64,000 nucleotides of DNA from Cryomorphaceae bacterium (GTDB lineage: Bacteria; Bacteroidota; Bacteroidia; Flavobacteriales; ECT2AJA-044), in contig CP059070.1 in assembly GCA_017798125.1 (NCBI GenBank), positions 2,356,001 to 2,420,000 of the forward strand, written 5' to 3'. Shown in pieces: positions 19,563 through 64,000 of this stretch. The notes under the pieces were generated by a model. That model saw only the letters and a program-made list of their open reading frames with translations. It did not search any database and was not told the origin of the DNA. Position 1 is the stretch's first letter, and each line of letters starts with the position of its first letter. Both the position numbers and the translations under genes were made by a program.

Positions 19563-20244
19563 GAGTAATCTACAGAGAGACTGGAATGAGATCAAGGCCA
19601 ACGATAGTTGGGCCATCTTCAAGGTCATGTCTGAATTTGTTGAAGGCTTTGAGAAGCTCAGTAAAATAGGCCCCTGCGTCAGTATTTTTGGTTCCGCGCG
19701 CACTAAACCTGAGGACAAGTACTACCTGCTTGCAGAAGACATTGCCTTCCGGTTGTGCCAACGTGGATATGGTGTAATAAGCGGAGGTGGACCCGGTATC
19801 ATGGAAGCGGCCAATAAAGGTGCCAAGCGTGCCGGAGGGAATTCGGTAGGCTTGAATATCGAGCTCCCCATGGAGCAAGGATCGAACCCTTATATCGACC
19901 CAGACAAAAACATTGATTTTGATTACTTCTTTGTTCGGAAGGTCATGTTTGTCAAGTATTCTCAAGCCTTTATTGCCATGCCTGGCGGTTTCGGAACCTT
20001 GGACGAGTTCTTCGAATCCTTGACCTTGATACAAACGAATAAAATAGAACGCTTCCCCATTATTCTGTACGGTTCTGAATTCTGGTCCCCACTGCTCGAC
20101 TGGATTAAAACCACTGTGCTCAATGAATTTGCGAACGTCAGCCCTGAAGATCTGGATTTGATCACCATTTGCGATGAGCCAGACAACGTCGTTCAGACCA
20201 TCGACAAGTTCTACATGAAGTACCTTCTTCGTCCGAATTTCTAA
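19546..20244 (+). CDS. LOG family protein (second copy)
   Basis: 232 residues with SIFGSARTKPEDKYY, SGGGPGIMEAANKGA and the signature PGGFGTLDEFFE. Longer than the LOG protein at 10495, with an extra N-terminal helical region (about 1-40), so it belongs to the larger LOG subgroup often called lysine-decarboxylase-like; nucleoside-monophosphate phosphoribohydrolase activity is inferred from family. ATG 19546 lies within uvrA and starts a plausible helix; the frame is open further up to 19351, but those codons are antisense-like shadow of uvrA. Its TAA overlaps the ATG of ctlX by one base. Confidence 0.88.
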   Translation: MNQRLKSNLQRDWNEIKANDSWAIFKVMSEFVEGFEKLSKIGPCVSIFGSARTKPEDKYYLLAEDIAFRLCQRGYGVISGGGPGIMEAANKGAKRAGGNSVGLNIELPMEQGSNPYIDPDKNIDFDYFFVRKVMFVKYSQAFIAMPGGFGTLDEFFESLTLIQTNKIERFPIILYGSEFWSPLLDWIKTTVLNEFANVSPEDLDLITICDEPDNVVQTIDKFYMKYLLRPNF

Positions 20245-21143
20245 TGGCCTCGAGAGTCTTTATGGTTCGCCCGGCCGCTTTTGGACCCAATCCGCAAACC
20301 GCGCAGAGCAACGCCTTTCAAAGTGAAGAAAAGCCCCCCGATAATCTTCCTGAACTCGCTCGATTAGAATTCGATGCCTTGGTCCACTCCTTGCGGAACG
20401 CCGGTGTACTTGTGGAGGTATTCGACGAGCCTTCCGAGACGGCTAATCCCGATGCGGTTTTCCCTAACAATTGGGTTAGCTTCCATCCAAAAAAAGGGCG
20501 CGTTTTCCTTTATCCTATGTTAGCGCCTACACGGCGCGATGAGCGGCGTCCTCAATGGGTAGATCAACTCGTCATTGACTGGCCGCAGACAAAAATCACG
20601 GATCTGAGCCCTCACGAGAAAGACGGTAGATTTCTTGAAGGCACGGGATCCCTCATATTCGACCCGCTTCAAGAATTAATCTTTGCAACGCGTTCACCTC
20701 GAACGGACGACGAATTGGTCCACCAAGTAGCTACAGACTTAGGATTGCGTGCCATGCTCTTCGACGCCTTCGATAAAAATGGCCAGGCGATCTACCACAC
20801 CAATGTCGTTTTTGGCCTCGGCCAACATCTGGCTATGGGTTGTTGGGAAGCAATCCCTCAAGATCAACGCATTGAAGTTATTACCACTCTGAATTCGTCG
20901 AATCGTCCGGTGATGCATCTGAATCACGAGCAAATGGCCTCTTTCGCGGGGAATTGGATTGAGTTAGAAGGCCATTCCGGACCCGTTATGGCGTTAAGCA
21001 AAACAGCATGGCAATCACTACAGCCAAGCCAAAAAGCTGTTATTCAGGACATTTACGAAGTTGTGGTCGGTACTATACCCTTGATCGAAACATTTGGAGG
21101 TGGATCCGTGCGTTGCATGATTTGCTCTGTTGATGCCCGGTGA
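20244..21143 (+). CDS. ctlX: CtlX-type amidinotransferase/arginine deiminase-related hydrolase
   Basis: 299 residues of the guanidine-modifying pentein fold. Catalytic residues are visible: Asp in NPDAVFPNNW, Glu in LEGTGSLIFD, His in YHTNVVFGLG, and the C-terminal nucleophile Cys291 in GGGSVRC. Members act on arginine, citrulline or methylated arginine; CtlX was proposed for citrulline use, so the exact substrate is inferred. Last gene of the rfbC-uvrA run. The 223 bases after it hold repeated motifs and no gene. Confidence 0.88.
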   Translation: MASRVFMVRPAAFGPNPQTAQSNAFQSEEKPPDNLPELARLEFDALVHSLRNAGVLVEVFDEPSETANPDAVFPNNWVSFHPKKGRVFLYPMLAPTRRDERRPQWVDQLVIDWPQTKITDLSPHEKDGRFLEGTGSLIFDPLQELIFATRSPRTDDELVHQVATDLGLRAMLFDAFDKNGQAIYHTNVVFGLGQHLAMGCWEAIPQDQRIEVITTLNSSNRPVMHLNHEQMASFAGNWIELEGHSGPVMALSKTAWQSLQPSQKAVIQDIYEVVVGTIPLIETFGGGSVRCMICSVDAR

Positions 21144-21151
21144 CTTTTCGC

Positions 21152-21269
21152 TAAAATCACAATTCCGAAAGTCTGGATAAAATCACATATCCGATGCAAA
21201 CTGGCTTCAAGCCCCTGATTTCCCTAAAATCACGCCTCTAATCGGGTAATCCGCTTTTCCTAATATCAC
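21152..21269 (+). promoter_or_regulatory. four direct copies of TAAAATCAC
   Basis: TAAAATCAC occurs at 21152, 21178 and 21225, and TAATATCAC at 21261, all in the same orientation, each followed 2-5 bases later by a loosely similar TCCGA/TCTAA/TCTGA stretch. Spacings are 26, 47 and 36 bases. Placed about 100-215 bases before the next gene, they could be binding sites of an unknown regulator. No protein-coding frame fits this stretch. Confidence 0.5.
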
Positions 21270-21291
21270 ACTTCTGATTTTCCTCCAAGCT

Positions 21292-21314
21292 AGAGCCCTT
21301 GTATTATGGGCTCT
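21292..21314. other. hairpin with 7-bp stem
   Basis: AGAGCCC (21292-21298) pairs with GGGCTCT (21308-21314) around a 9-base loop. No T-run follows on the plus strand, so it is a weak terminator candidate for ctlX at most, or an element in the leader of the next gene. GTTAC-TCT-GTAAC, a second short palindrome, lies downstream near 21340. Confidence 0.4.
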
Positions 21315-21366
21315 TGAATCCACTATATTGTACTCTGTTACTCTGTAACACACCAAACCTAATTAC

Positions 21367-22929
21367 ATGTCTAAGAAAACAAGCGAACATCTTCACGCTT
21401 TAGTGCATAGCTTGACACCGCATGAAAAGCGGTATTTCAAGATATATGCAACGCGACATGTGATCGAAAAGAACAACGTTCATATTCAAGTCTTTGACGC
21501 GGTAGACGAACAAGAGACCTACGACGAGCAGATCATTCTAGATCGTTTTAAAGGGGAAAAGTTTGTCAAGCGATTTGCAGTAACAAAATCACGTCTCTAC
21601 GAACTAATTCTCAAGAGTCTTCACGCCTATCACGCTTCTAGCTCCGTTGATGCTGAGCTCAAGAAAATGCTGCATATGGCGGAAATCCTGTACAAGAAGA
21701 CGCTTTACAGACAGTGCGACAAGTTGTTGAAAAAAGCCAAAAAGCTAGCGCTTGAACACGACAAGCACACCACCCTGTTGGAAATTAGACTTTGGGAAAA
21801 GCGGATTTTAGAAAAGGACAACTATTCGGGACAAGACGATCAGGCCATCAAGGACATTCTCGAAGAAGACTTACATACTATTGAGCTCATTAAGAACTAC
21901 TACACCTTCTGGAACTTGAAGTCTCGTTTCTTCCTTCCGCTATACAAAGGTGGAAAAGTTCGAAACTTAGAGGAAAAAGAGAAATTCAATCAGATCCTCT
22001 TGGATCCGCATCTTCAAGATGAGGACATGGCGCTCACCGTTGAAGCGAAGTACTTGTTTCACCATATCTATTCAGCACACAACTTCTCCACCGGGGATTA
22101 CGAGAAGAGCTATCAACATATGATTCTCAACCTGAGACTCATTGAAAAAAACTTCATCCTCTTCAAAGAAGAACCCAACACCTACTTCAGCATCTTGTCC
22201 AATGTAATCTACATCGGAAATCAACTGAAGAAACACAGCGAAATACGAGATCACTTTGACAAATTGGGTGAGTTCGTTGCTCGACTGGATCAAAAGGACA
22301 ATGTGGACCTTCAGATGCGGATTTTCAGCATTCTTAAATCACTCGAGCTCACTATTCATGTGCAGAAAGGAGAATATGATAGGGCTCTTGATATCCTTCC
22401 CGAGGTGGAAGGTGGACTTAAAAAGTTCGACACAAAATTGAGTCCGCTGCGCAAGGCTGACTTCTTATTCAATATCGCTACGCTCTATTTCGGTTTAGAG
22501 CAGTACTCGGATAGCCTGAAGAATGTCAATAAAATTTTGAATGAGACGCGAATTGACGAGAATGAGGATTTATTCAGCTTCTCGAAATTCATGAGTCTGG
22601 TTCTCCATTATGAATTGGGACATTTCGAACTGGTGGTCTATCAGAGCGAAAGCACGTACCGATACCTTAAAAAGCGTAACCGCGTCTTCAAAACGGAACA
22701 AGCGCTCATTCGCTTCTTCAAGCGCCTTCATCAGTATGAACCTAAGGATACAAAGCCCTTTATTGAATTGCGCGATGAACTGATGAGCTTGATTGAAGAG
22801 CCCTTGGAAAAAGCACCCTTCGAATACTTTGATTTCATCTCTTGGTGCGACAGTAAAATCTCCGGGCAGTCGTTCGCTCATTTGGTTCGCGTAAAGCACG
22901 GAATTGAGCCTCTAGACAAGGCGGGGTAA
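21367..22929 (+). CDS. all-helical TPR-like protein of unknown function
   Basis: 520 residues, no signal or membrane segment, strongly helical and rich in Lys, Leu, Glu and aromatic residues. Several degenerate tetratricopeptide-like helix pairs can be seen (LLKKAKKLALEHDKH, FLFNIATLYFGLEQYSDSL), but no canonical TPR run. The N-terminus (SEHLHALVHSLTPHEKRYFK) is distinctive and recurs, as I recall, in uncharacterised Flavobacteriales proteins. A scaffold or regulatory role is only a guess. It stands alone, preceded by a repeat-bearing leader and followed by a converging gene block. Confidence 0.75.
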   Translation: MSKKTSEHLHALVHSLTPHEKRYFKIYATRHVIEKNNVHIQVFDAVDEQETYDEQIILDRFKGEKFVKRFAVTKSRLYELILKSLHAYHASSSVDAELKKMLHMAEILYKKTLYRQCDKLLKKAKKLALEHDKHTTLLEIRLWEKRILEKDNYSGQDDQAIKDILEEDLHTIELIKNYYTFWNLKSRFFLPLYKGGKVRNLEEKEKFNQILLDPHLQDEDMALTVEAKYLFHHIYSAHNFSTGDYEKSYQHMILNLRLIEKNFILFKEEPNTYFSILSNVIYIGNQLKKHSEIRDHFDKLGEFVARLDQKDNVDLQMRIFSILKSLELTIHVQKGEYDRALDILPEVEGGLKKFDTKLSPLRKADFLFNIATLYFGLEQYSDSLKNVNKILNETRIDENEDLFSFSKFMSLVLHYELGHFELVVYQSESTYRYLKKRNRVFKTEQALIRFFKRLHQYEPKDTKPFIELRDELMSLIEEPLEKAPFEYFDFISWCDSKISGQSFAHLVRVKHGIEPLDKAG

Positions 22930-48900: not shown

Positions 48901-49780
48901 TATTACTAGCCCATGGACCTCATTAACCTCAAGCGCTCCGATTTCATTTATTTACGATAAGAATAACACAAATACGGGCAACGTAACCCTGAAGGTTGTT
49001 GCCATCGATGAAAGCAACAATGAATCGACGATTTGGGGTCCTAACTTAGTACCATCTATTCCTGAAGCTGTTACCTTCCCGTCTGGTGTAACCGGCAACT
49101 ATCAGTTAAAATTTGAGTTCAACAGTACCGGGGGCGGGAATACTAGAGCCATCCTAGACAGCATTGTAATAGCTGGAAGAATTGTTGGTGATACGGCAAA
49201 CGTACCTGGAAATGGAAATTGCAACCTACTTGTAAGTCCTCCTGATGGAAATCCAGCCTCCAATTTCGCCACCTCCTCGATTAGTGATTTGGCCGCTGGT
49301 ACATATTCGGTTTCTGTTACCGATGAGAATGGCTGTAAGCAAGTCATCTCAGGTCTTGTTGTTGGAGAGCCAGCATCTGCGCTTGTCGCAGATGCCGATC
49401 TTGTTTCTGATGCCTCTTGCCCAAGCTCATCTGATGGATCCGCCACGGCTAGTGCTTCTGGTGGTACTGCTCCATATTCGTATCTCTGGAGTTCGGGTGC
49501 CAACACCAACACCGCGAGTGGTCTTTCTGCAGGGTCCTACGACGTGACTGTTACCGACGTCAATGGATGTAAGAGCATTGCTTCGGTTGCAGTTGCCGGT
49601 GTTGACAACATCGATCCGACAGCCATCTGTCAAGACATCACCATCCAACTCGACGCTTCCGGTAACGCCTCCATCTCCACTTCCGATATCGACAACGGGT
49701 CGGCCGATAACTGTGGCATCGACAACATCTCCTCGATATCACCACATTCGATTGTACCAACGTCGGACCAAACACCGTGA
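39959..49780 (+). CDS. giant SprB-repeat surface protein (frame ends in first HYR unit)
   Basis: 3273 residues from GTG 39959, chosen because it begins a clean signal peptide (LRLLLVTFVLLGSAMALRA). Order: unique N-terminal beta region (about 30-480); cadherin-like tandem domain (about 485-590); SdrD B-like domain (about 595-660, DEDRDQSIDGSENEYQG, DVDGDGTLSSGD); two MAM-like jelly-roll stretches (about 665-1050); second cadherin-like domain (about 1070-1170); about 22 SprB-type repeats (1178-3213); then the first HYR unit from 3217. It is most likely exported by type IX secretion and displayed as an adhesin. A one-base deletion in HYR unit 1 brings a TGA at 49778; the original frame continues in the following units. 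With an intact frame the protein would exceed 8000 residues at the window end. Confidence 0.88.
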   Translation: MLLSLRHTLRLLLVTFVLLGSAMALRAEGTKELRPQQDTTIGGTTFTVEGALAPYDWGGDFASWESSTNPDERLNIHIFDNSREYIYFGFAPQRTDEITYWRLRDPNDNIVASGTIEPGNPGFIDSYAEAVAGPNDAVNFPNPGGYDAIRFDPSMNGDYYIELNFENNVAQNTTRASSGGDFANRYDFFDITVIDETVDEVKLGRVWATKWALITNGSNVVFKPSVYVYREDGTLYEVKYNDIRPFGFGIVANTWGLDTALNLFESRKTRDGSDLNGTFTGSGGAPAYGEVPYQPEHKIFLNPPDDSAFPYASTVPSAALTSITGISCVGSNYCINVTADADGQVTLDIDANNDGDTDDPEDLVLFELVQAGSNCIEWDGLDGLGVEVGDGATISIEFKYEAGLVHFPIYDAENNDGGFTVNQLAPSSINNVAQFWNDLPVGGSSDTTTGCTSTVCHTWSGTNEIFHNTWVVSNEFISTSSYIFNSYCPPTAINDTVTVNGFQATGVDPIPNDDFPKSNPDFTTISIVTSPVNGVVTNINTSDGTFTYTPGPGFSGSDSLEYEICDDHTTPTCVTAWVYINGNIVAGPCTPETGKIKVAGTVWEDEDRDQSIDGSENEYQGALIRVWNDVDGDGTLSSGDTRFDSTFTDANGEYSLSIDVSGGSGGSGATDGFESNNLIGGTGWAAGWTETDNGGVGTSTGNIQISTAQTNSGTYAIRFDDIGDDTDNATATNNIEDGDGIQRTIDLTGYISPELQFSERNDNGESGDNVLVRISTNGGSSYTTLLTLVGNNNQTWTDQTIDLSAYVGQTVIIDFSAFNGTTSAWWPDAGNDVWYLDDVAIVEAGSNCTTPTFTVRDEFSTIAYDNNDGTANWFNNWEDDENGSPVVASPFQNRSNGQSIYIGTDVDGPNGPDDQCLIFDDVNNNDTISRQVDLRNACGTATFSFVYTENAGGSNDLLQVSVNGTQELTLPNNVGSTPTNESIDLTPFIGQIVTIGFYPTGGWGGGDEYFVDDVQVQYEEAVPEKFIVEVDSTTIPFPFLYTTLSEIPVEGSCCSAPTYCDSDFGFDAFIPPVVGDDDVTLEQCESVTFNVLSNDFGPDPDRNLDTASLVIITNPLNGVLSNINPGNTGDITYTPNTNFNGSDQFTYAIYDDGSPSLGDTATVTITVTPPGQQIFVLDTVINVSCNGLNDGSIDLTTGGGFFPLSYDWSTGASTEDISSLSAGTYFLTITDANGCTLIRSFVVSQPDSLEVQLVTADLNCNGDSDGAVTSFVSGGTPPYSYAWNTGPVTPNLNSLPAGTYSVVVTDANGCTDNAQVTINEPDVLVLANTVSSDACASSIDLTVSGGTLPYAYAWSNGAGSQDVSGLDAGTYTVTVTDGNGCKETSTGIIVQSAQLSLGVTNTDVSCNGGSDGTIDLTITGNNGPFTISWTNGASTEDLSGVPAGTYLVTVDDAANCSAQITVVVDEPDAIDPGETIQNVLCFGDANGSITLVPVGGTSPYSFAWSNGAGNVSSQTSLSAGNYTVSITDANGCLYTETLVVGGPSNALSSGIVQANVTCSGENDGVLTANVSGGTSPYAYNWSTGGATNSISSLSPGTYFVTITDDNSCQVTESYTITEPDELTLSYVLTQNPCNGNALGEIDITVIGGTGPYTYGWSDGPNTQDRTGLTEGSYTLNVFDANGCSVDTTISLSDPNVISTSTVITNASSVSASDGAIDLNVSGGTSPFTYLWSNGAVVQDPSGLAVGTYCVTITDDNGCTLIVCKTVIADIPAADCGSGIVADNFSTPDVWTNQDGSINWSTDWTEEGEGQDASAGRNRNEANANCPNGNCLVFGAGGVVAQTNDAVYREVDLTNATTATLTFDWFTFETESSASENVIVEIDTTGTGSSYTTVYTILSAAGTNQSGSGSANENLNSYVGKVARLRFRIQNGFSIASEEILVDNIQISITSTTDLQVTITETDALCNGSADGEAVASVSGGTGPYTYAWSSGGNGITETGLGQGVYTVTVTDDEGCTVQGIAIIDEPTSISLSGSTTDNFCVGDSQGSIDLDVNGGTPPYAYAWTNGAGSAQDPTGLSAGSYTVDVTDDNGCNAQISFTINEPSNALSASASPTDVSCNGDSDGSIDLTVTFGTPPYSYVWDNGAGSSQDPSGLSAGTYNVTVTDANGCTTTASAVVSEPSALVATAVDGTVPCFGDTEGSASVNPSGGTPPYMYQWNAPAGNQTTQTATGLVAGTYNVVITDANGCTANVDVDVTEPSLLSVTIGSVVNVDCNGNATGSATANPTGGTPPYTYSWSASAGNQTTQTASNVAAGTIIVVVTDANGCTAQNNVTLTEPSPLITGFTINTALSCNGDNSAQATITASGGTPPYSYQWPASAGSSTSATVSSLSGGTYIATVTDDNGCTSEVSVVISEPDVITVDVILASGVSCTGESDATATASSSGGTGSFTYLWSDGQSTQTATGLGSGTYSVTVTDQNGCTETGSIVIANPPVLTVVASQVQGVTCNGDGDGEATVVPSGGTPPYSYQWDGNAGAQVTQNATNLIGGVFNVIVTDANGCIANDWVTITEPDVLTVVGSENSAVTCNGLSDGTATATPTGGTGPYSYQWGASAGNQTTQTATGLAAGTYSVVITDANGCTASDNTVVISQPNAIVVNAIESSAVSCNGLNDGQALINSTTGGNGGFTYEWSTGGIGTSVSGLSAGTYGVTATDALGCTGKTTVVITEPEALTLNVVLVQDVQCNGDADGSATASVSGGTPPYSFAWDNLESTQTAVALSAGSQGVVVTDANGCSVSGSITINEPVALFAFAPAGRVSCLGDSDGAFNMVVSGGTSPYTYAWSNGDITEDVENLAAGTYSVTITDTNGCITELESLLITSPDGISGSSTNITDVDCFGASTGSITVSASGGSGSLTFQWSNGASSSGSSYSPTYLQDMEAGSTANVEAECWQLVGGSINATNVIEGAVSFRSGNMNNSTSERSITSPWTSLTSSAPISFIYDKNNTNTGNVTLKVVAIDESNNESTIWGPNLVPSIPEAVTFPSGVTGNYQLKFEFNSTGGGNTRAILDSIVIAGRIVGDTANVPGNGNCNLLVSPPDGNPASNFATSSISDLAAGTYSVSVTDENGCKQVISGLVVGEPASALVADADLVSDASCPSSSDGSATASASGGTAPYSYLWSSGANTNTASGLSAGSYDVTVTDVNGCKSIASVAVAGVDNIDPTAICQDITIQLDASGNASISTSDIDNGSADNCGIDNISSISPHSIVPTSDQTP
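40027..40039. repeat. dispersed palindrome copy 11 (GGCCCTACGGGCC)
   Basis: Falls on the signal-peptide cleavage region of the giant protein, read as MALRAE. Confidence 0.6.
43490..49600 (+). repeat. about 22 divergent SprB-type protein repeats
   Basis: Each repeat is roughly 70-80 residues and follows VSCNGDSDGSI ... GGTPPYSYAWSNG ... LSAGTYSVTVTDANGC ... EP. Repeats differ strongly at DNA level, so they are old. Two non-repeat modules interrupt the series: a MAM-like stretch at about 45270-45830 between repeats 8 and 9, and a similar one at about 48730-49250 that splits repeat 21 into two halves. The type is that of SprB, the mobile gliding adhesin of Flavobacterium. Confidence 0.85.
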
Positions 49781-52700
49781 CCCTTACCGTCACCGATGAG
49801 AATGGCAATACCGATCAGTGTACCGCTACGGTGACCGTCGAAGACAACATCGATCCGACAGCCATCTGTCAAGACATCACCATCCAACTCGACGCTTCCG
49901 GTAACGCCTCCATCTCCACTTCCGATATCGACAACGGGTCGGCCGATAACTGTGGCATCGACAACATCTCCCTCGATATCACCACATTCGATTGTACCAA
50001 CGTCGGACCAAACACCGTGACCCTTACCGTCACCGATGAGAATGGCAATACCGATCAGTGTACCGCTACGGTGACCGTCGAAGACAACATCGATCCGACA
50101 GCCATCTGTCAAGACATCACCATCCAACTCGACGCTTCCGGTAACGCCTCCATCTCCACTTCCGATATCGACAACGGGTCGGCCGATAACTGTGGCATCG
50201 ACAACATCTCCTCGATATCACCACATTCGATTGTACCAACGTCGGACCAAACACCGTGACCCTTACCGTCACCGATGAGAATGGCAATACCGATCAGTGT
50301 ACCGCTACGGTGACCGTCGAAGACAACATCGATCCGACAGCCATCTGTCAAGACATCACCATCCAACTCGACGCTTCCGGTAACGCCTCCATCTCCACTT
50401 CCGATATCGACAACGGGTCGGCCGATAACTGTGGCATCGACAACATCTCCCTCGATATCACCACATTCGATTGTACCAACGTCGGACCAAACACCGTGAC
50501 CCTTACCGTCACCGATGAGAATGGCAATACCGATCAGTGTACCGCTACGGTGACCGTCGAAGACAACATCGATCCGACAGCCATCTGTCAAGACATCACC
50601 ATCCAACTCGACGCTTCCGGTAACGCCTCCATCTCCACTTCCGATATCGACAACGGGTCGGCCGATAACTGTGGCATCGACAACATCTCCTCGATATCAC
50701 CACATTCGATTGTACCAACGTCGGACCAAACACCGTGACCCTTACCGTCACCGATGAGAATGGCAATACCGATCAGTGTACCGCTACGGTGACCGTCGAA
50801 GACAACATCGATCCGACAGCCATCTGTCAAGACATCACCATCCAACTCGACGCTTCCGGTAACGCCTCCATCTCCACTTCCGATATCGACAACGGGTCGG
50901 CCGATAACTGTGGCATCGACAACATCTCCCTCGATATCACCACATTCGATTGTACCAACGTCGGACCAAACACCGTGACCCTTACCGTCACCGATGAGAA
51001 TGGCAATACCGATCAGTGTACCGCTACGGTGACCGTCGAAGACAACATCGATCCGACAGCCATCTGTCAAGACATCACCATCCAACTCGACGCTTCCGGT
51101 AACGCCTCCATCTCCACTTCCGATATCGACAACGGGTCGGCCGATAACTGTGGCATCGACAACATCTCCCTCGATATCACCACATTCGATTGTACCAACG
51201 TCGGACCAAACACCGTGACCCTTACCGTCACCGATGAGAATGGCAATACCGATCAGTGTACCGCTACGGTGACCGTCGAAGACAACATCGATCCGACAGC
51301 CATCTGTCAAGACATCACCATCCAACTCGACGCTTCCGGTAACGCCTCCATCTCCACTTCCGATATCGACAACGGGTCGGCCGATAACTGTGGCATCGAC
51401 AACATCTCCTCGATATCACCACATTCGATTGTACCAACGTCGGACCAAACACCGTGACCCTTACCGTCACCGATGAGAATGGCAATACCGATCAGTGTAC
51501 CGCTACGGTGACCGTCGAAGACAACATCGATCCGACAGCCATCTGTCAAGACATCACCATCCAACTCGACGCTTCCGGTAACGCCTCCATCTCCACTTCC
51601 GATATCGACAACGGGTCGGCCGATAACTGTGGCATCGACAACATCTCCTCGATATCACCACATTCGATTGTACCAACGTCGGACCAAACACCGTGACCCT
51701 TACCGTCACCGATGAGAATGGCAATACCGATCAGTGTACCGCTACGGTGACCGTCGAAGACAACATCGATCCGACAGCCATCTGTCAAGACATCACCATC
51801 CAACTCGACGCTTCCGGTAACGCCTCCATCTCCACTTCCGATATCGACAACGGGTCGGCCGATAACTGTGGCATCGACAACATCTCCCTCGATATCACCA
51901 CATTCGATTGTACCAACGTCGGACCAAACACCGTGACCCTTACCGTCACCGATGAGAATGGCAATACCGATCAGTGTACCGCTACGGTGACCGTCGAAGA
52001 CAACATCGATCCGACAGCCATCTGTCAAGACATCACCATCCAACTCGACGCTTCCGGTAACGCCTCCATCTCCACTTCCGATATCGACAACGGGTCGGCC
52101 GATAACTGTGGCATCGACAACATCTCCTCGATATCACCACATTCGATTGTACCAACGTCGGACCAAACACCGTGACCCTTACCGTCACCGATGAGAATGG
52201 CAATACCGATCAGTGTACCGCTACGGTGACCGTCGAAGACAACATCGATCCGACAGCCATCTGTCAAGACATCACCATCCAACTCGACGCTTCCGGTAAC
52301 GCCTCCATCTCCACTTCCGATATCGACAACGGGTCGGCCGATAACTGTGGCATCGACAACATCTCCCTCGATATCACCACATTCGATTGTACCAACGTCG
52401 GACCAAACACCGTGACCCTTACCGTCACCGATGAGAATGGCAATACCGATCAGTGTACCGCTACGGTGACCGTCGAAGACAACATCGATCCGACAGCCAT
52501 CTGTCAAGACATCACCATCCAACTCGACGCTTCCGGTAACGCCTCCATCTCCACTTCCGATATCGACAACGGGTCGGCCGATAACTGTGGCATCGACAAC
52601 ATCTCCCTCGATATCACCACATTCGATTGTACCAACGTCGGACCAAACACCGTGACCCTTACCGTCACCGATGAGAATGGCAATACCGATCAGTGTACCG

Positions 52701-55700
52701 CTACGGTGACCGTCGAAGACAACATCGATCCGACAGCCATCTGTCAAGACATCACCATCCAACTCGACGCTTCCGGTAACGCCTCCATCTCCACTTCCGA
52801 TATCGACAACGGGTCGGCCGATAACTGTGGCATCGACAACATCTCCCTCGATATCACCACATTCGATTGTACCAACGTCGGACCAAACACCGTGACCCTT
52901 ACCGTCACCGATGAGAATGGCAATACCGATCAGTGTACCGCTACGGTGACCGTCGAAGACAACATCGATCCGACAGCCATCTGTCAAGACATCACCATCC
53001 AACTCGACGCTTCCGGTAACGCCTCCATCTCCACTTCCGATATCGACAACGGGTCGGCCGATAACTGTGGCATCGACAACATCTCCCTCGATATCACCAC
53101 ATTCGATTGTACCAACGTCGGACCAAACACCGTGACCCTTACCGTCACCGATGAGAATGGCAATACCGATCAGTGTACCGCTACGGTGACCGTCGAAGAC
53201 AACATCGATCCGACAGCCATCTGTCAAGACATCACCATCCAACTCGACGCTTCCGGTAACGCCTCCATCTCCACTTCCGATATCGACAACGGGTCGGCCG
53301 ATAACTGTGGCATCGACAACATCTCCCTCGATATCACCACATTCGATTGTACCAACGTCGGACCAAACACCGTGACCCTTACCGTCACCGATGAGAATGG
53401 CAATACCGATCAGTGTACCGCTACGGTGACCGTCGAAGACAACATCGATCCGACAGCCATCTGTCAAGACATCACCATCCAACTCGACGCTTCCGGTAAC
53501 GCCTCCATCTCCACTTCCGATATCGACAACGGGTCGGCCGATAACTGTGGCATCGACAACATCTCCTCGATATCACCACATTCGATTGTACCAACGTCGG
53601 ACCAAACACCGTGACCCTTACCGTCACCGATGAGAATGGCAATACCGATCAGTGTACCGCTACGGTGACCGTCGAAGACAACATCGATCCGACAGCCATC
53701 TGTCAAGACATCACCATCCAACTCGACGCTTCCGGTAACGCCTCCATCTCCACTTCCGATATCGACAACGGGTCGGCCGATAACTGTGGCATCGACAACA
53801 TCTCCCTCGATATCACCACATTCGATTGTACCAACGTCGGACCAAACACCGTGACCCTTACCGTCACCGATGAGAATGGCAATACCGATCAGTGTACCGC
53901 TACGGTGACCGTCGAAGACAACATCGATCCGACAGCCATCTGTCAAGACATCACCATCCAACTCGACGCTTCCGGTAACGCCTCCATCTCCACTTCCGAT
54001 ATCGACAACGGGTCGGCCGATAACTGTGGCATCGACAACATCTCCTCGATATCACCACATTCGATTGTACCAACGTCGGACCAAACACCGTGACCCTTAC
54101 CGTCACCGATGAGAATGGCAATACCGATCAGTGTACCGCTACGGTGACCGTCGAAGACAACATCGATCCGACAGCCATCTGTCAAGACATCACCATCCAA
54201 CTCGACGCTTCCGGTAACGCCTCCATCTCCACTTCCGATATCGACAACGGGTCGGCCGATAACTGTGGCATCGACAACATCTCCTCGATATCACCACATT
54301 CGATTGTACCAACGTCGGACCAAACACCGTGACCCTTACCGTCACCGATGAGAATGGCAATACCGATCAGTGTACCGCTACGGTGACCGTCGAAGACAAC
54401 ATCGATCCGACAGCCATCTGTCAAGACATCACCATCCAACTCGACGCTTCCGGTAACGCCTCCATCTCCACTTCCGATATCGACAACGGGTCGGCCGATA
54501 ACTGTGGCATCGACAACATCTCCTCGATATCACCACATTCGATTGTACCAACGTCGGACCAAACACCGTGACCCTTACCGTCACCGATGAGAATGGCAAT
54601 ACCGATCAGTGTACCGCTACGGTGACCGTCGAAGACAACATCGATCCGACAGCCATCTGTCAAGACATCACCATCCAACTCGACGCTTCCGGTAACGCCT
54701 CCATCTCCACTTCCGATATCGACAACGGGTCGGCCGATAACTGTGGCATCGACAACATCTCCCTCGATATCACCACATTCGATTGTACCAACGTCGGACC
54801 AAACACCGTGACCCTTACCGTCACCGATGAGAATGGCAATACCGATCAGTGTACCGCTACGGTGACCGTCGAAGACAACATCGATCCGACAGCCATCTGT
54901 CAAGACATCACCATCCAACTCGACGCTTCCGGTAACGCCTCCATCTCCACTTCCGATATCGACAACGGGTCGGCCGATAACTGTGGCATCGACAACATCT
55001 CCTCGATATCACCACATTCGATTGTACCAACGTCGGACCAAACACCGTGACCCTTACCGTCACCGATGAGAATGGCAATACCGATCAGTGTACCGCTACG
55101 GTGACCGTCGAAGACAACATCGATCCGACAGCCATCTGTCAAGACATCACCATCCAACTCGACGCTTCCGGTAACGCCTCCATCTCCACTTCCGATATCG
55201 ACAACGGGTCGGCCGATAACTGTGGCATCGACAACATCTCCTCGATATCACCACATTCGATTGTACCAACGTCGGACCAAACACCGTGACCCTTACCGTC
55301 ACCGATGAGAATGGCAATACCGATCAGTGTACCGCTACGGTGACCGTCGAAGACAACATCGATCCGACAGCCATCTGTCAAGACATCACCATCCAACTCG
55401 ACGCTTCCGGTAACGCCTCCATCTCCACTTCCGATATCGACAACGGGTCGGCCGATAACTGTGGCATCGACAACATCTCCTCGATATCACCACATTCGAT
55501 TGTACCAACGTCGGACCAAACACCGTGACCCTTACCGTCACCGATGAGAATGGCAATACCGATCAGTGTACCGCTACGGTGACCGTCGAAGACAACATCG
55601 ATCCGACAGCCATCTGTCAAGACATCACCATCCAACTCGACGCTTCCGGTAACGCCTCCATCTCCACTTCCGATATCGACAACGGGTCGGCCGATAACTG

Positions 55701-58700
55701 TGGCATCGACAACATCTCCCTCGATATCACCACATTCGATTGTACCAACGTCGGACCAAACACCGTGACCCTTACCGTCACCGATGAGAATGGCAATACC
55801 GATCTGTACCGCTACGGTGACCGTCGAAGACAACATCGATCCGACAGCCATCTGTCAAGACATCACCATCCAACTCGACGCTTCCGGTAACGCCTCCATC
55901 TCCACTTCCGATATCGACAACGGGTCGGCCGATAACTGTGGCATCGACAACATCTCCTCGATATCACCACATTCGATTGTACCAACGTCGGACCAAACAC
56001 CGTGACCCTTACCGTCACCGATGAGAATGGCAATACCGATCAGTGTACCGCTACGGTGACCGTCGAAGACAACATCGATCCGACAGCCATCTGTCAAGAC
56101 ATCACCATCCAACTCGACGCTTCCGGTAACGCCTCCATCTCCACTTCCGATATCGACAACGGGTCGGCCGATAACTGTGGCATCGACAACATCTCCCTCG
56201 ATATCACCACATTCGATTGTACCAACGTCGGACCAAACACCGTGACCCTTACCGTCACCGATGAGAATGGCAATACCGATCAGTGTACCGCTACGGTGAC
56301 CGTCGAAGACAACATCGATCCGACAGCCATCTGTCAAGACATCACCATCCAACTCGACGCTTCCGGTAACGCCTCCATCTCCACTTCCGATATCGACAAC
56401 GGGTCGGCCGATAACTGTGGCATCGACAACATCTCCCTCGATATCACCACATTCGATTGTACCAACGTCGGACCAAACACCGTGACCCTTACCGTCACCG
56501 ATGAGAATGGCAATACCGATCAGTGTACCGCTACGGTGACCGTCGAAGACAACATCGATCCGACAGCCATCTGTCAAGACATCACCATCCAACTCGACGC
56601 TTCCGGTAACGCCTCCATCTCCACTTCCGATATCGACAACGGGTCGGCCGATAACTGTGGCATCGACAACATCTCCTCGATATCACCACATTCGATTGTA
56701 CCAACGTCGGACCAAACACCGTGACCCTTACCGTCACCGATGAGAATGGCAATACCGATCAGTGTACCGCTACGGTGACCGTCGAAGACAACATCGATCC
56801 GACAGCCATCTGTCAAGACATCACCATCCAACTCGACGCTTCCGGTAACGCCTCCATCTCCACTTCCGATATCGACAACGGGTCGGCCGATAACTGTGGC
56901 ATCGACAACATCTCCTCGATATCACCACATTCGATTGTACCAACGTCGGACCAAACACCGTGACCCTTACCGTCACCGATGAGAATGGCAATACCGATCA
57001 GTGTACCGCTACGGTGACCGTCGAAGACAACATCGATCCGACAGCCATCTGTCAAGACATCACCATCCAACTCGACGCTTCCGGTAACGCCTCCATCTCC
57101 ACTTCCGATATCGACAACGGGTCGGCCGATAACTGTGGCATCGACAACATCTCCTCGATATCACCACATTCGATTGTACCAACGTCGGACCAAACACCGT
57201 GACCCTTACCGTCACCGATGAGAATGGCAATACCGATCAGTGTACCGCTACGGTGACCGTCGAAGACAACATCGATCCGACAGCCATCTGTCAAGACATC
57301 ACCATCCAACTCGACGCTTCCGGTAACGCCTCCATCTCCACTTCCGATATCGACAACGGGTCGGCCGATAACTGTGGCATCGACAACATCTCCTCGATAT
57401 CACCACATTCGATTGTACCAACGTCGGACCAAACACCGTGACCCTTACCGTCACCGATGAGAATGGCAATACCGATCAGTGTACCGCTACGGTGACCGTC
57501 GAAGACAACATCGATCCGACAGCCATCTGTCAAGACATCACCATCCAACTCGACGCTTCCGGTAACGCCTCCATCTCCACTTCCGATATCGACAACGGGT
57601 CGGCCGATAACTGTGGCATCGACAACATCTCCCTCGATATCACCACATTCGATTGTACCAACGTCGGACCAAAACACCGTGACCCTTACCGTCACCGATG
57701 AGAATGGCAATACCGATCAGTGTACCGCTACGGTGACCGTCGAAGACAACATCGATCCGACAGCCATCTGTCAAGACATCACCATCAACTCGACGCTTCC
57801 GGTAACGCCTCCATCTCCACTTCCGATATCGACAACGGGTCGGCCGATAACTGTGGCATCGACAACATCTCCTCGATATCACCACATTCGATTGTACCAA
57901 CGTCGGACCAAACACCGTGACCCTTACCGTCACCGATGAGAATGGCAATACCGATCAGTGTACCGCTACGGTGACCGTCGAAGACAACATCGATCCGACA
58001 GCCATCTGTCAAGACATCACCATCCAACTCGACGCTTCCGGTAACGCCTCCATCTCCCACTTCCGATATCGACAACGGGTCGGCCGATAACTGTGGCATC
58101 GACAACATCTCCCTCGATATCACCACATTCGATTGTACCAACGTCGGACCAAACACCGTGACCCTTACCGTCACCGATGAGAATGGCAATACCGATCAGT
58201 GTACCGCTACGGTGACCGTCGAAGACAACATCGATCCGACAGCCATCTGTCAAGACATCACCATCCAACTCGACGCTTCCGGTAACGCCTCCATCTCCAC
58301 TTCCGATATCGACAACGGGTCGGCCGATAACTGTGGCATCGACAACATCTCCCTCGATATCACCACATTCGATTGTACCAACGTCGGACCAAACACCGTG
58401 ACCCCTTACCGTCACCGATGAGAATGGCAATACCGATCAGTGTACCGCTACGGTGACCGTCGAAGACAACATCGATCCGACAGCCATCTGTCAAGACATC
58501 ACCATCCAACTCGACGCTTCCGGTAACGCCTCCATCTCCACTTCCGATATCGACAACGGGTCGGCCGATAACTGTGGCATCGACAACATCTCCCTCGATA
58601 TCACCACATTCGATTGTACCAACGTCGGACCAAACACCGTGACCCTTACCGTCACCGATGAGAATGGCAATACCGATCAGTGTACCGCTACGGTGACCGT

Positions 58701-60079
58701 CGAAGACAACATCGATCCGACAGCCATCTGTCAAGACATCACCATCCAACTCGACGCTTCCGGTAACGCCTCCATCTCCACTTCCGATATCGACAACGGG
58801 TCGGCCGATAACTGTGGCATCGACAACATCTCCCTCGATATCACCACATTCGATTGTACCAACGTCGGACCAAACACCGTGACCCTTACCGTCACCGATG
58901 AGAATGGCAATACCGATCAGTGTACCGCTACGGTGACCGTCGAAGACAACATCGATCCGACAGCCATCTGTCAAGACATCACCATCCAACTCGACGCTTC
59001 CGGTAACGCCTCCATCTCCACTTCCGATATCGACAACGGGTCGGCCGATAACTGTGGCATCGACAACATCTCCCTCGATATCACCACATTCGATTGTACC
59101 AACGTCGGACCAAAACACCGTGACCCTTACCGTCACCGATGAGAATGGCAATACCGATCAGTGTACCGCTACGGTGACCGTCGAAGACAACATCGATCCG
59201 ACAGCCATCTGTCAAGACATCACCATCCAACTCGACGCTTCCGGTAACGCCTCCATCTCCACTTCCGATATCGACAACGGGTCGGCCGATAACTGTGGCA
59301 TCGACAACATCTCCCTCGATATCACCACATTCGATTGTACCAACGTCGGACCAAACACCGTGACCCTTACCGTCACCGATGAGAATGGCAATACCGATCA
59401 GTGTACCGCTACGGTGACCGTCGAAGACAACATCGATCCGACAGCCATCTGTCAAGACATCACCATCCAACTCGACGCTTCCGGTAACGCCTCCATCTCC
59501 ACTTCCGATATCGACAACGGGTCGGCCGATAACTGTGGCATCGACAACATCTCCCTCGATATCACCACATTCGATTGTACCAACGTCGGACCAAACACCG
59601 TGACCCTTACCGTCACCGATGAGAATGGCAATACCGATCAGTGTACCGCTACGGTGACCGTCGAAGACAACATCGATCCGACAGCCATCTGTCAAGACAT
59701 CACCATCCAACTCGACGCTTCCGGTAACGCCTCCATCTCCACTTCCGATATCGACAACGGGTCGGCCGATAACTGTGGCATCGACAACATCTCCCTCGAT
59801 ATCACCACATTCGATTGTACCAACGTCGGACCAAACACCGTGACCCTTACCGTCACCGATGAGAATGGCAATACCGATCAGTGTACCGCTACGGTGACCG
59901 TCGAAGACAACATCGATCCGACAGCCATCTGTCAAGACATCACCATCAACTCGACGCTTCCGGTAACGCCTCCATCTCCACTTCCGATATCGACAACGGG
60001 TCGGCCGATAACTGTGGCATCGACAACATCTCCCTCGATATCACCACATTCGATTGTACCAACGTCGGACCAAAACACC
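49781..60079 (+). pseudogene. continuation of giant adhesin gene, frame broken repeatedly
   Basis: Within this part of the array the adhesin frame is lost in 18 more units through the CCC to CC deletion, and at a two-base loss (near 55804), four one-base insertions before 60000 (A near 57674 and 59114, C near 58057 and 58404), a missing C near 57787 and 59947, and an extra A near 60074. Each CCC deletion leads within 16 codons to TGA overlapping a GTG in the original frame, so the stretch breaks into frames of 80, 160, 240 or 480 codons. Whether this is biology or residual assembly error cannot be decided from the sequence. Confidence 0.6.
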
Positions 60080-63000
60080 GTGACCCTTACCGTCACCGAT
60101 GAGAATGGCAATACCGATCAGTGTACCGCTACGGTGACCGTCGAAGACAACATCGATCCGACAGCCATCTGTCAAGACATCACCATCCAACTCGACGCTT
60201 CCGGTAACGCCTCCATCTCCACTTCCGATATCGACAACGGGTCGGCCGATAACTGTGGCATCGACAACATCTCCCTCGATATCACCACATTCGATTGTAC
60301 CAACGTCGGACCAAACACCGTGACCCTTACCGTCACCGATGAGAATGGCAATACCGATCAGTGTACCGCTACGGTGACCGTCGAAGACAACATCGATCCG
60401 ACAGCCATCTGTCAAGACATCACCATCCAACTCGACGCTTCCGGTAACGCCTCCATCTCCACTTCCGATATCGACAACGGGTCGGCCGATAACTGTGGCA
60501 TCGACAACATCTCCCTCGATATCACCACATTCGATTGTACCAACGTCGGACCAAACACCGTGACCCTTACCGTCACCGATGAGAATGGCAATACCGATCA
60601 GTGTACCGCTACGGTGACCGTCGAAGACAACATCGATCCGACAGCCATCTGTCAAGACATCACCATCCAACTCGACGCTTCCGGTAACGCCTCCATCTCC
60701 ACTTCCGATATCGACAACGGGTCGGCCGATAACTGTGGCATCGACAACATCTCCCTCGATATCACCACATTCGATTGTACCAACGTCGGACCAAACACCG
60801 TGACCCTTACCGTCACCGATGAGAATGGCAATACCGATCAGTGTACCGCTACGGTGACCGTCGAAGACAACATCGATCCGACAGCCATCTGTCAAGACAT
60901 CACCATCCAACTCGACGCTTCCGGTAACGCCTCCATCTCCACTTCCGATATCGACAACGGGTCGGCCGATAACTGTGGCATCGACAACATCTCCCTCGAT
61001 ATCACCACATTCGATTGTACCAACGTCGGACCAAACACCGTGACCCTTACCGTCACCGATGAGAATGGCAATACCGATCAGTGTACCGCTACGGTGACCG
61101 TCGAAGACAACATCGATCCGACAGCCATCTGTCAAGACATCACCATCCAACTCGACGCTTCCGGTAACGCCTCCATCTCCACTTCCGATATCGACAACGG
61201 GTCGGCCGATAACTGTGGCATCGACAACATCTCCCTCGATATCACCACATTCGATTGTACCAACGTCGGACCAAACACCGTGACCCTTACCGTCACCGAT
61301 GAGAATGGCAATACCGATCAGTGTACCGCTACGGTGACCGTCGAAGACAACATCGATCCGACAGCCATCTGTCAAGACATCACCATCCAACTCGACGCTT
61401 CCGGTAACGCCTCCATCTCCACTTCCGATATCGACAACGGGTCGGCCGATAACTGTGGCATCGACAACATCTCCCTCGATATCACCACATTCGATTGTAC
61501 CAACGTCGGACCAAACACCGTGACCCTTACCGTCACCGATGAGAATGGCAATACCGATCAGTGTACCGCTACGGTGACCGTCGAAGACAACATCGATCCG
61601 ACAGCCATCTGTCAAGACATCACCATCCAACTCGACGCTTCCGGTAACGCCTCCATCTCCACTTCCGATATCGACAACGGGTCGGCCGATAACTGTGGCA
61701 TCGACAACATCTCCCTCGATATCACCACATTCGATTGTACCAACGTCGGACCAAACACCGTGACCCTTACCGTCACCGATGAGAATGGCAATACCGATCA
61801 GTGTACCGCTACGGTGACCGTCGAAGACAACATCGATCCGACAGCCATCTGTCAAGACATCACCATCCAACTCGACGCTTCCGGTAACGCCTCCATCTCC
61901 ACTTCCGATATCGACAACGGGTCGGCCGATAACTGTGGCATCGACAACATCTCCCTCGATATCACCACATTCGATTGTACCAACGTCGGACCAAACACCG
62001 TGACCCTTACCGTCACCGATGAGAATGGCAATACCGATCAGTGTACCGCTACGGTGACCGTCGAAGACAACATCGATCCGACAGCCATCTGTCAAGACAT
62101 CACCATCCAACTCGACGCTTCCGGTAACGCCTCCATCTCCACTTCCGATATCGACAACGGGTCGGCCGATAACTGTGGCATCGACAACATCTCCCTCGAT
62201 ATCACCACATTCGATTGTACCAACGTCGGACCAAACACCGTGACCCTTACCGTCACCGATGAGAATGGCAATACCGATCAGTGTACCGCTACGGTGACCG
62301 TCGAAGACAACATCGATCCGACAGCCATCTGTCAAGACATCACCATCCAACTCGACGCTTCCGGTAACGCCTCCATCTCCACTTCCGATATCGACAACGG
62401 GTCGGCCGATAACTGTGGCATCGACAACATCTCCCTCGATATCACCACATTCGATTGTACCAACGTCGGACCAAACACCGTGACCCTTACCGTCACCGAT
62501 GAGAATGGCAATACCGATCAGTGTACCGCTACGGTGACCGTCGAAGACAACATCGATCCGACAGCCATCTGTCAAGACATCACCATCCAACTCGACGCTT
62601 CCGGTAACGCCTCCATCTCCACTTCCGATATCGACAACGGGTCGGCCGATAACTGTGGCATCGACAACATCTCCCTCGATATCACCACATTCGATTGTAC
62701 CAACGTCGGACCAAACACCGTGACCCTTACCGTCACCGATGAGAATGGCAATACCGATCAGTGTACCGCTACGGTGACCGTCGAAGACAACATCGATCCG
62801 ACAGCCATCTGTCAAGACATCACCATCCAACTCGACGCTTCCGGTAACGCCTCCATCTCCACTTCCGATATCGACAACGGGTCGGCCGATAACTGTGGCA
62901 TCGACAACATCTCCCTCGATATCACCACATTCGATTGTACCAACGTCGGACCAAACACCGTGACCCTTACCGTCACCGATGAGAATGGCAATACCGATCA

Positions 63001-64000
63001 GTGTACCGCTACGGTGACCGTCGAAGACAACATCGATCCGACAGCCATCTGTCAAGACATCACCATCCAACTCGACGCTTCCGGTAACGCCTCCATCTCC
63101 ACTTCCGATATCGACAACGGGTCGGCCGATAACTGTGGCATCGACAACATCTCCCTCGATATCACCACATTCGATTGTACCAACGTCGGACCAAACACCG
63201 TGACCCTTACCGTCACCGATGAGAATGGCAATACCGATCAGTGTACCGCTACGGTGACCGTCGAAGACAACATCGATCCGACAGCCATCTGTCAAGACAT
63301 CACCATCCAACTCGACGCTTCCGGTAACGCCTCCATCTCCACTTCCGATATCGACAACGGGTCGGCCGATAACTGTGGCATCGACAACATCTCCCTCGAT
63401 ATCACCACATTCGATTGTACCAACGTCGGACCAAACACCGTGACCCTTACCGTCACCGATGAGAATGGCAATACCGATCAGTGTACCGCTACGGTGACCG
63501 TCGAAGACAACATCGATCCGACAGCCATCTGTCAAGACATCACCATCCAACTCGACGCTTCCGGTAACGCCTCCATCTCCACTTCCGATATCGACAACGG
63601 GTCGGCCGATAACTGTGGCATCGACAACATCTCCCTCGATATCACCACATTCGATTGTACCAACGTCGGACCAAACACCGTGACCCTTACCGTCACCGAT
63701 GAGAATGGCAATACCGATCAGTGTACCGCTACGGTGACCGTCGAAGACAACATCGATCCGACAGCCATCTGTCAAGACATCACCATCCAACTCGACGCTT
63801 CCGGTAACGCCTCCATCTCCACTTCCGATATCGACAACGGGTCGGCCGATAACTGTGGCATCGACAACATCTCCCTCGATATCACCACATTCGATTGTAC
63901 CAACGTCGGACCAAACACCGTGACCCTTACCGTCACCGATGAGAATGGCAATACCGATCAGTGTACCGCTACGGTGACCGTCGAAGACAACATCGATCCG
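60080..64000 (+). CDS. open HYR-repeat frame running off the window (adhesin continuation)
   Basis: From the GTG at 60080 the adhesin frame is open for 1307 codons to the window end, over sixteen perfect units and the start of a 61st. The GTG is only the first possible start after the last frame break; the stretch more likely belongs to the single gene that begins at 39959 and whose C-terminus, where a type IX sorting domain would be expected, lies outside the window. Confidence 0.6.
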   Translation, partial: MTLTVTDENGNTDQCTATVTVEDNIDPTAICQDITIQLDASGNASISTSDIDNGSADNCGIDNISLDITTFDCTNVGPNTVTLTVTDENGNTDQCTATVTVEDNIDPTAICQDITIQLDASGNASISTSDIDNGSADNCGIDNISLDITTFDCTNVGPNTVTLTVTDENGNTDQCTATVTVEDNIDPTAICQDITIQLDASGNASISTSDIDNGSADNCGIDNISLDITTFDCTNVGPNTVTLTVTDENGNTDQCTATVTVEDNIDPTAICQDITIQLDASGNASISTSDIDNGSADNCGIDNISLDITTFDCTNVGPNTVTLTVTDENGNTDQCTATVTVEDNIDPTAICQDITIQLDASGNASISTSDIDNGSADNCGIDNISLDITTFDCTNVGPNTVTLTVTDENGNTDQCTATVTVEDNIDPTAICQDITIQLDASGNASISTSDIDNGSADNCGIDNISLDITTFDCTNVGPNTVTLTVTDENGNTDQCTATVTVEDNIDPTAICQDITIQLDASGNASISTSDIDNGSADNCGIDNISLDITTFDCTNVGPNTVTLTVTDENGNTDQCTATVTVEDNIDPTAICQDITIQLDASGNASISTSDIDNGSADNCGIDNISLDITTFDCTNVGPNTVTLTVTDENGNTDQCTATVTVEDNIDPTAICQDITIQLDASGNASISTSDIDNGSADNCGIDNISLDITTFDCTNVGPNTVTLTVTDENGNTDQCTATVTVEDNIDPTAICQDITIQLDASGNASISTSDIDNGSADNCGIDNISLDITTFDCTNVGPNTVTLTVTDENGNTDQCTATVTVEDNIDPTAICQDITIQLDASGNASISTSDIDNGSADNCGIDNISLDITTFDCTNVGPNTVTLTVTDENGNTDQCTATVTVEDNIDPTAICQDITIQLDASGNASISTSDIDNGSADNCGIDNISLDITTFDCTNVGPNTVTLTVTDENGNTDQCTATVTVEDNIDPTAICQDITIQLDASGNASISTSDIDNGSADNCGIDNISLDITTFDCTNVGPNTVTLTVTDENGNTDQCTATVTVEDNIDPTAICQDITIQLDASGNASISTSDIDNGSADNCGIDNISLDITTFDCTNVGPNTVTLTVTDENGNTDQCTATVTVEDNIDPTAICQDITIQLDASGNASISTSDIDNGSADNCGIDNISLDITTFDCTNVGPNTVTLTVTDENGNTDQCTATVTVEDNIDPTAICQDITIQLDASGNASISTSDIDNGSADNCGIDNISLDITTFDCTNVGPNTVTLTVTDENGNTDQCTATVTVEDNIDP

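Follow-up and report, generated by a model that had tools for sequence, protein, structure and literature searches.

What the four same-direction copies of the short word TAAWATCAC do in the 223-base gap between a ctlX-like gene (ending at 21143) and the gene for a 520-aa protein (starting at 21367) is the question raised by this locus. The window, i.e., the whole stretch of 64 kb that was analysed, covers positions 2,356,001 to 2,420,000 of a 2.84-Mb single-contig genome (G000), which places the array at 2.377 Mb. The product of the upstream gene reached 323.5 bits against the NCBIfam profile citrull_CtlX, just under the cut-off of 334. The window also contains part of a much larger repeat: inside a giant secreted-protein gene, roughly 97 nearly identical units of 240 bp (80-aa repeats, presumably HYR-like) form a 23-kb array, which occupies window positions 49604-64000 and continues to about 73017 (about 2,429,000 of G000). 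The frame of the gene shifts at no fewer than two places, near the start of the 23-kb array and at about 60050, which may be due to assembly error or decay.

The array and its conservation in the sister species

A sequence-only reading had described four same-direction copies of the 9-mer in 118 bases, followed by a 7-bp hairpin and a palindrome, and all of these features are present in the window (Table 1). The 9-mer TAAAATCAC is found at 21152-21160, 21178-21186 and 21225-21233, and the variant TAATATCAC at 21261-21269, each on the forward strand. The repeat unit is longer than this word and comprises four 23-base copies, with copies 2-4 matching copy 1 at 74-78%. The exact word TAAWATCAC has four matches in the 64-kb window, all of them in the array, compared to an expectation of 0.87. 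Four matches anywhere in the window were reached by two out of 100 shuffles, with the real four confined to 118 bp, and when the 223-base leader was shuffled 400 times, no shuffle contained four non-overlapping 9-mers within one mismatch. With one mismatch allowed, the 9-mer occurs in the window 18 times compared to 17.1 expected, i.e., no more often than the background, so that the close grouping of the copies is what stands out, rather than the word itself. A further near-copy, AAAAATCACGGATCTGA, is located in the same direction inside ctlX (20591-20599), some 560 bp before the array.

Table 1. Features of the leader and its flanking genes (window positions), and loci of related genes.
Feature	Position or locus	Strand	Basis and remarks
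Upstream gene, CtlX-like citrulline hydrolase	20244..21143	+	PF19420; citrull_CtlX
Repeat copy 1, TTTCGCTAAAATCACAATTCCGA	21146..21168	+	direct-repeat family D1; stretch CTAAAATCACAATTCCGAA identical in sister species
Repeat copy 2, TCTGGATAAAATCACATATCCGA	21172..21194	+	direct-repeat family; core kept, same spacing, in sister species
Repeat copy 3, TTTCCCTAAAATCACGCCTCTAA	21219..21241	+	direct-repeat family; core kept in sister species
Repeat copy 4, TTTTCCTAATATCACACTTCTGA	21255..21277	+	direct-repeat family; core kept bar one base in sister species
7-bp hairpin AGAGCCC-9 nt-GGGCTCT	21292..21314 (arms 21292-21298 / 21308-21314)	+	sequence; in RNA fold
TATATTG in conserved block TTGAATnCnCTATATTGTnCTC	21324..21330	+	putative -7 promoter element; kept in sister species
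Palindrome GTTAC-TCT-GTAAC	21337..21349	+	sequence; sister species keeps only GTT-N7-AAC (alignment reading)
Downstream gene, 520 aa, RusR/BT2802-like	21367..22929	+	profiles and model: N-terminal helical domain plus TPR superhelix
RusR-like paralogue loci in nzgw129	L081, L083, L086, L089, L092, L094, L097, L098, L100, L102, L107, L109		

Among 59 other genomes searched for relatives, one (G001) belongs to the same genus and family as G000. Its homologue of the 520-aa protein is 91% identical, and the LOG, ctlX and glycosyltransferase neighbours follow in the same order, with ctlX, on the other side of the array, being 59% identical. All four sites are present in the G001 leader at the same spacing of 26, 47 and 36 bp, without any indel over 110 bp. 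The core AWATCAC is identical in 27 of 28 bases, compared to 44 of 96 in the other columns (Fisher p 5e-7), and the TCYR part in 12 of 16 bases (Fisher p 0.056). The site common to both species can be written as AAATCAC-N3-TCYRA, and the columns invariant over all eight copies are AxATCAC and, three bases on, TC. As would be expected of a transcription-factor operator array, the repeated site is thus conserved in position between related species, here in one species pair. Because the four sites are kept at exactly the same distances in the sister species, they most likely constitute a protein-binding control region, with the footprint resting on a single comparison since the genus is represented by two species.

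This agrees in part with the sequence-only reading, which had proposed a cooperative DNA-binding regulator: the identical spacing and the diverged sequence between the sites speak for a regulatory array, whereas the geometry does not speak for cooperativity. At 10.5 bp per turn, the spacings correspond arithmetically to about 2.5, 4.5 and 3.4 turns, so that neighbouring sites lie on opposite faces of the helix and only sites 1 and 3, and sites 2 and 4, are approximately in phase with each other. Simple side-by-side cooperativity is therefore disfavoured.

Downstream of the array, the alignment of both leaders contains a conserved block around TATATTG. The -7 promoter consensus of Bacteroidota is TAnnTTTG, and this likeness suggests that TATATTG may serve as the -7 element of the downstream gene. 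A sigma-70-type scan of the region returned three promoter-like sites where 0.8 would be expected; the putative TATATTG promoter on the forward strand is not among them. In the alignment as read here, the 7-bp stem of the hairpin is not preserved in G001.

The RusR/BT2802-like downstream gene

The 520-aa protein has one match at E <= 0.001 in the window genome and hence is single-copy there; the metagenome-assembled genome nzgw129 (JAHEYN contigs), in comparison, carries at least 12 RusR-like paralogues. No Pfam family scored above its cut-off. The NCBIfam profile NF058569 (RusR/BT2802) matched residues 5-506, i.e., nearly the whole protein, with 173.9 bits (E 6.5e-51), but the curated cut-off of this profile is 550 bits, which makes the protein a relative and not a member of the family. 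The namesake, BT2802 of Bacteroides thetaiotaomicron, is taken here to be RusR. The loci differ as well: among the immediate neighbours examined here, namely ctlX, a LOG-family gene, a uvrA-like gene and glycosyltransferase-like genes (uvrA and the glycosyltransferases named by eye), no ribose-utilisation locus was recognised, whereas RusR is named as the regulator of the ribose locus BT2803-2809 in the BtModulome study (PMC12596196).

A structure model of the 520-aa protein (pLDDT 89) is all helix; the TPR superhelix follows on an N-terminal domain some 95 residues long. The modelled TPR half is closest to Rap/NprR (best Z 20.6, rmsd 4.3, 298 residues aligned): for residues 124-512, the first ten structure matches are all Rap/NprR chains, followed by eukaryotic TPR proteins at Z 18. 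This result is consistent with a TPR receptor fold as found in the RRNPP proteins, and a profile search of PDB sequences likewise returned TPR proteins as best matches. The likeness to the Rap/NprR proteins of Firmicutes thus concerns the superhelix, over about 300 residues; sequence identity, however, is only about 9-15%, and an N-terminal helix-turn-helix is not recognised in the 520-aa protein. When the N-terminal 95 residues were modelled alone (pLDDT 88), the best Foldseek match had an E-value of 1.1 and the best match by VIA was an unrelated protein (Z 7.8, rmsd 2.8, 86 aligned). In this comparison no helix-turn-helix family stands out and no DNA-binding fold could be assigned. For membership in RRNPP, an adjacent propeptide gene is given as a criterion in PMC10075063.

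These features allow for a far-reaching interpretation, according to which the RusR-like helical-plus-TPR proteins encountered here across Bacteroidota would be DNA-binding regulators that parallel the RRNPP receptors of Firmicutes, with an N-terminal domain lacking a convincing match in the PDB, and the array would be the operator through which one of these proteins controls its own gene. Taken as a whole, we regard this interpretation as decidedly unlikely.

Distribution of the array

Outside the array, no second pair of the 9-mer was found in the window genome, and no other array of three or more sites was found in G000 or G001. The AAATCAC pairs of G001 are the array itself and one on contig C62, the latter overlapping a gene end. 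A sequence profile built from the eight copies, which these match by construction, was run on both genomes (150 of 191 and 150 of 153 candidates scored). Among the candidates scored, only one non-array place, on contig C10 of G001, ranks among the array copies (E 0.04, rank 8), with all remaining matches at E 0.27 or worse, and the array therefore stands alone in the two genomes.

By its own criterion, the sequence-only reading would be refuted by a 9-mer that is spread no more densely than the background and shows no conservation in front of orthologues of the gene. Conservation was observed before the nearest orthologue, but it fails before 67 more distant homologues, in whose upstream regions (up to 300 bp) two AAATCAC never occur and one occurs in six cases. 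This survey covered 69 regions, two of them from the genus, and left out the partial loci L079, L099, L110, L111 and L113. A profile search of 72 homologue loci, including these five, gave a single match (E 0.67) located downstream of the gene. When 68 homologue leaders (one leader containing N was dropped) were checked for arrays of their own sequence, p < 0.05 was reached only by those of G000 (0/60 shuffles) and G001 (2/60).

At the level of the order, a spaced pair was found in five out of 395 genomes, namely G345, G097, G241 and the two of the genus. The pairs of G345 and G097 are simple short repeats and that of G241 lies beside a gene read as a restriction-modification specificity subunit. 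Simple repeats aside, more than a pair was found in the genus only. The single motif AAATCACANTTCNGA occurred at 32 places in 26 of 196 genomes, compared to 13 for a reversed-pattern control, and 21 of the 24 placeable occurrences outside the genus lie inside open reading frames. Judged from sequence, the locus thus most likely contains a real, conserved and genus-restricted regulatory array of a familiar kind. The gene behind it, which encodes a probably regulatory protein, is of a type that has received little study.

Explanations of the array

Eight profile matches outside the array, some of them intergenic (L136, L140 and L142), raise the possibility that the array is merely the densest of genus-wide intergenic sites for a broader regulator or a chromosome-organising protein, with the RusR-like gene being one role among several. 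Some sites recur in both species: G000:201056 has its orthologous counterpart at G001:C57:12076, and G000:176202 and 176813, found by a profile scan of 1.19 Mb of stretches, reappear on contig C36 of G001. In addition, five of the eight matches (L136, L139, L140, L142 and L144, with L139 and L140 being one orthologous site) precede, by about 70-190 bp, genes whose products appear by eye to be secreted or lipoproteins, with the motif antisense to these genes. A sixth, L141, is also listed before a secreted-looking gene, the motif probably lying within its first codons. Against such a broader role, the E-values of the non-array matches range from 0.04 to 1, no secreted-protein genes adjoin L138 and L143, and the 3.6 kb around the dnaN end of G000 contain no AAATCAC that would correspond to the site beside the orthologous dnaN of G001. 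While the flanks of 176813 have diverged on one side, the DNA surrounding 176202 is conserved throughout, and the latter site therefore carries little weight. A regulon of secreted proteins was rejected, as the link did not exceed that of column-shuffled profiles (two among the top 20 antisense matches, null mean 0.67, reached by 8/60 nulls) in the 1.19-Mb genome sample, which includes the stretch chosen for the known site 201056. We consider a broader regulator of this kind rather unlikely. Still, because there are weaker single sites elsewhere, three of them seemingly conserved between the two species, a putative array-binding factor may have further targets. Two sequence features were noted at these places. 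At G000:C1:176816 and L144:2098 (contig C36 of G001), immediately past the presumed end of ahcY, AAAATCACAGTTCT is followed by the palindrome GGCCCGTAGGGCC; both are conserved in the two species, with the DNA on the other side differing. L136 (C10) and L142 (C16), two unrelated intergenic places in G001, have about 33 bases in common (AAAAGAATnTTTCGCCCTTAAATCACAnTTCCG), resembling a dispersed short repeat.

The repeats could also act at the RNA level, with AAAUCAC copies, some of them in hairpin loops, being read by an RNA-binding protein or taking part in attenuation. Both leaders fold better than 199 of 200 shuffles (z-scores -2.5 and -2.9), and around the core of 16 hand-picked sites, 75 of 2000 trials with partner-swapped flanks gave a mean stem at least as long as the real one, a weak effect. 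However, the folded structures differ between the two species, the conserved TATATTG, which resembles a promoter element, comes after the array and no Rfam family matched the leader at E up to 5. Moreover, several other sites have the motif on the strand opposite to the flanking genes, and its orientation towards transcription is hence not fixed. We consider an RNA-level element unlikely. Even less can be said for a replication origin or another iteron-type element, which the sequence-only reading had named as its less likely option. Iteron origins carry direct repeats, and the array, being the only one of its kind in the genome and kept in the sister species, resembles them in this regard, but neither its location nor its phasing fits, the spacings not being integral helical turns. 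In sampled stretches, the GC skew stays below zero as far as about 0.75 Mb, is positive in seven of nine samples between 1.05 and 2.25 Mb, and is mostly negative thereafter. As leading strands are G-rich, this pattern puts the origin near 0.9-1.05 Mb and the skew minimum 1.3-1.5 Mb away from the array. The single 16S gene (1.42 Mb, forward strand) is co-directional with an origin at that position, 220 kb separate the array from the coding sequence of the DnaA C-terminal domain, and the nearest of 27 matches to the DnaA box TTATCCACA is 30 kb off. We therefore regard an origin as extremely unlikely. An assignment to origin or terminus was rejected, since the positions of skew, dnaA, DnaA boxes and rRNA disagree; from the array to the change of skew near 2.25 Mb, the distance is about 120 kb.

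We consider it reasonably probable that the array is the cis-regulatory (operator) region of the RusR-like gene, bound by a sequence-specific protein. The four sites at fixed spacing, their higher conservation compared to the bases in between and the uniqueness of the array in both genomes argue for an operator, as does its position next to the better conserved of the two flanking genes. The clustering far beyond chance, the kinship of the downstream product with BT2802, its Rap/NprR-like TPR half and the lack of an Rfam match speak in the same direction. The absence of the array before the distant homologues, whose leaders have no significant arrays of their own, the failure to assign a DNA-binding fold to the N-terminal domain, the reliance on one species pair and the folding of both leaders count against an operator, as do the single intergenic copies, some of them orthologous, which are often antisense to flanking genes and therefore fit a wider role. 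Bacterial transcription factors commonly have multi-site operators, and the locus is similar to these in that same-direction copies of a short word, position-conserved between relatives, are found just upstream of a promoter-like element; it differs in the spacings that set neighbours on opposite faces.

We infer that the array is a protein site at the DNA level and that its target is the downstream gene. The four fixed sites lie some 50 to 175 bp before the putative TATATTG promoter. There, a putative DNA-binding protein would recognise AAATCAC-N3-TCYRA, which may be read as the weak dyad AATC-N8-GATT, and would thereby set the transcription of the RusR-like gene. A candidate for this protein is the RusR-like protein itself, although autoregulation appears possible rather than probable; alternatively, the binding protein could be a different regulator that also has a small number of single sites elsewhere.

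Among the matches listed in literature searches on RusR/BT2802, on RRNPP in Bacteroidetes and on the 9-mer, no account of the array was found. The locus provides a short fragment of DNA that carries four footprinted sites and precedes a gene of the RusR/BT2802-like family, which is widespread in Bacteroidota and hardly studied. Such a fragment could serve to tell whether RusR-like proteins bind DNA themselves.
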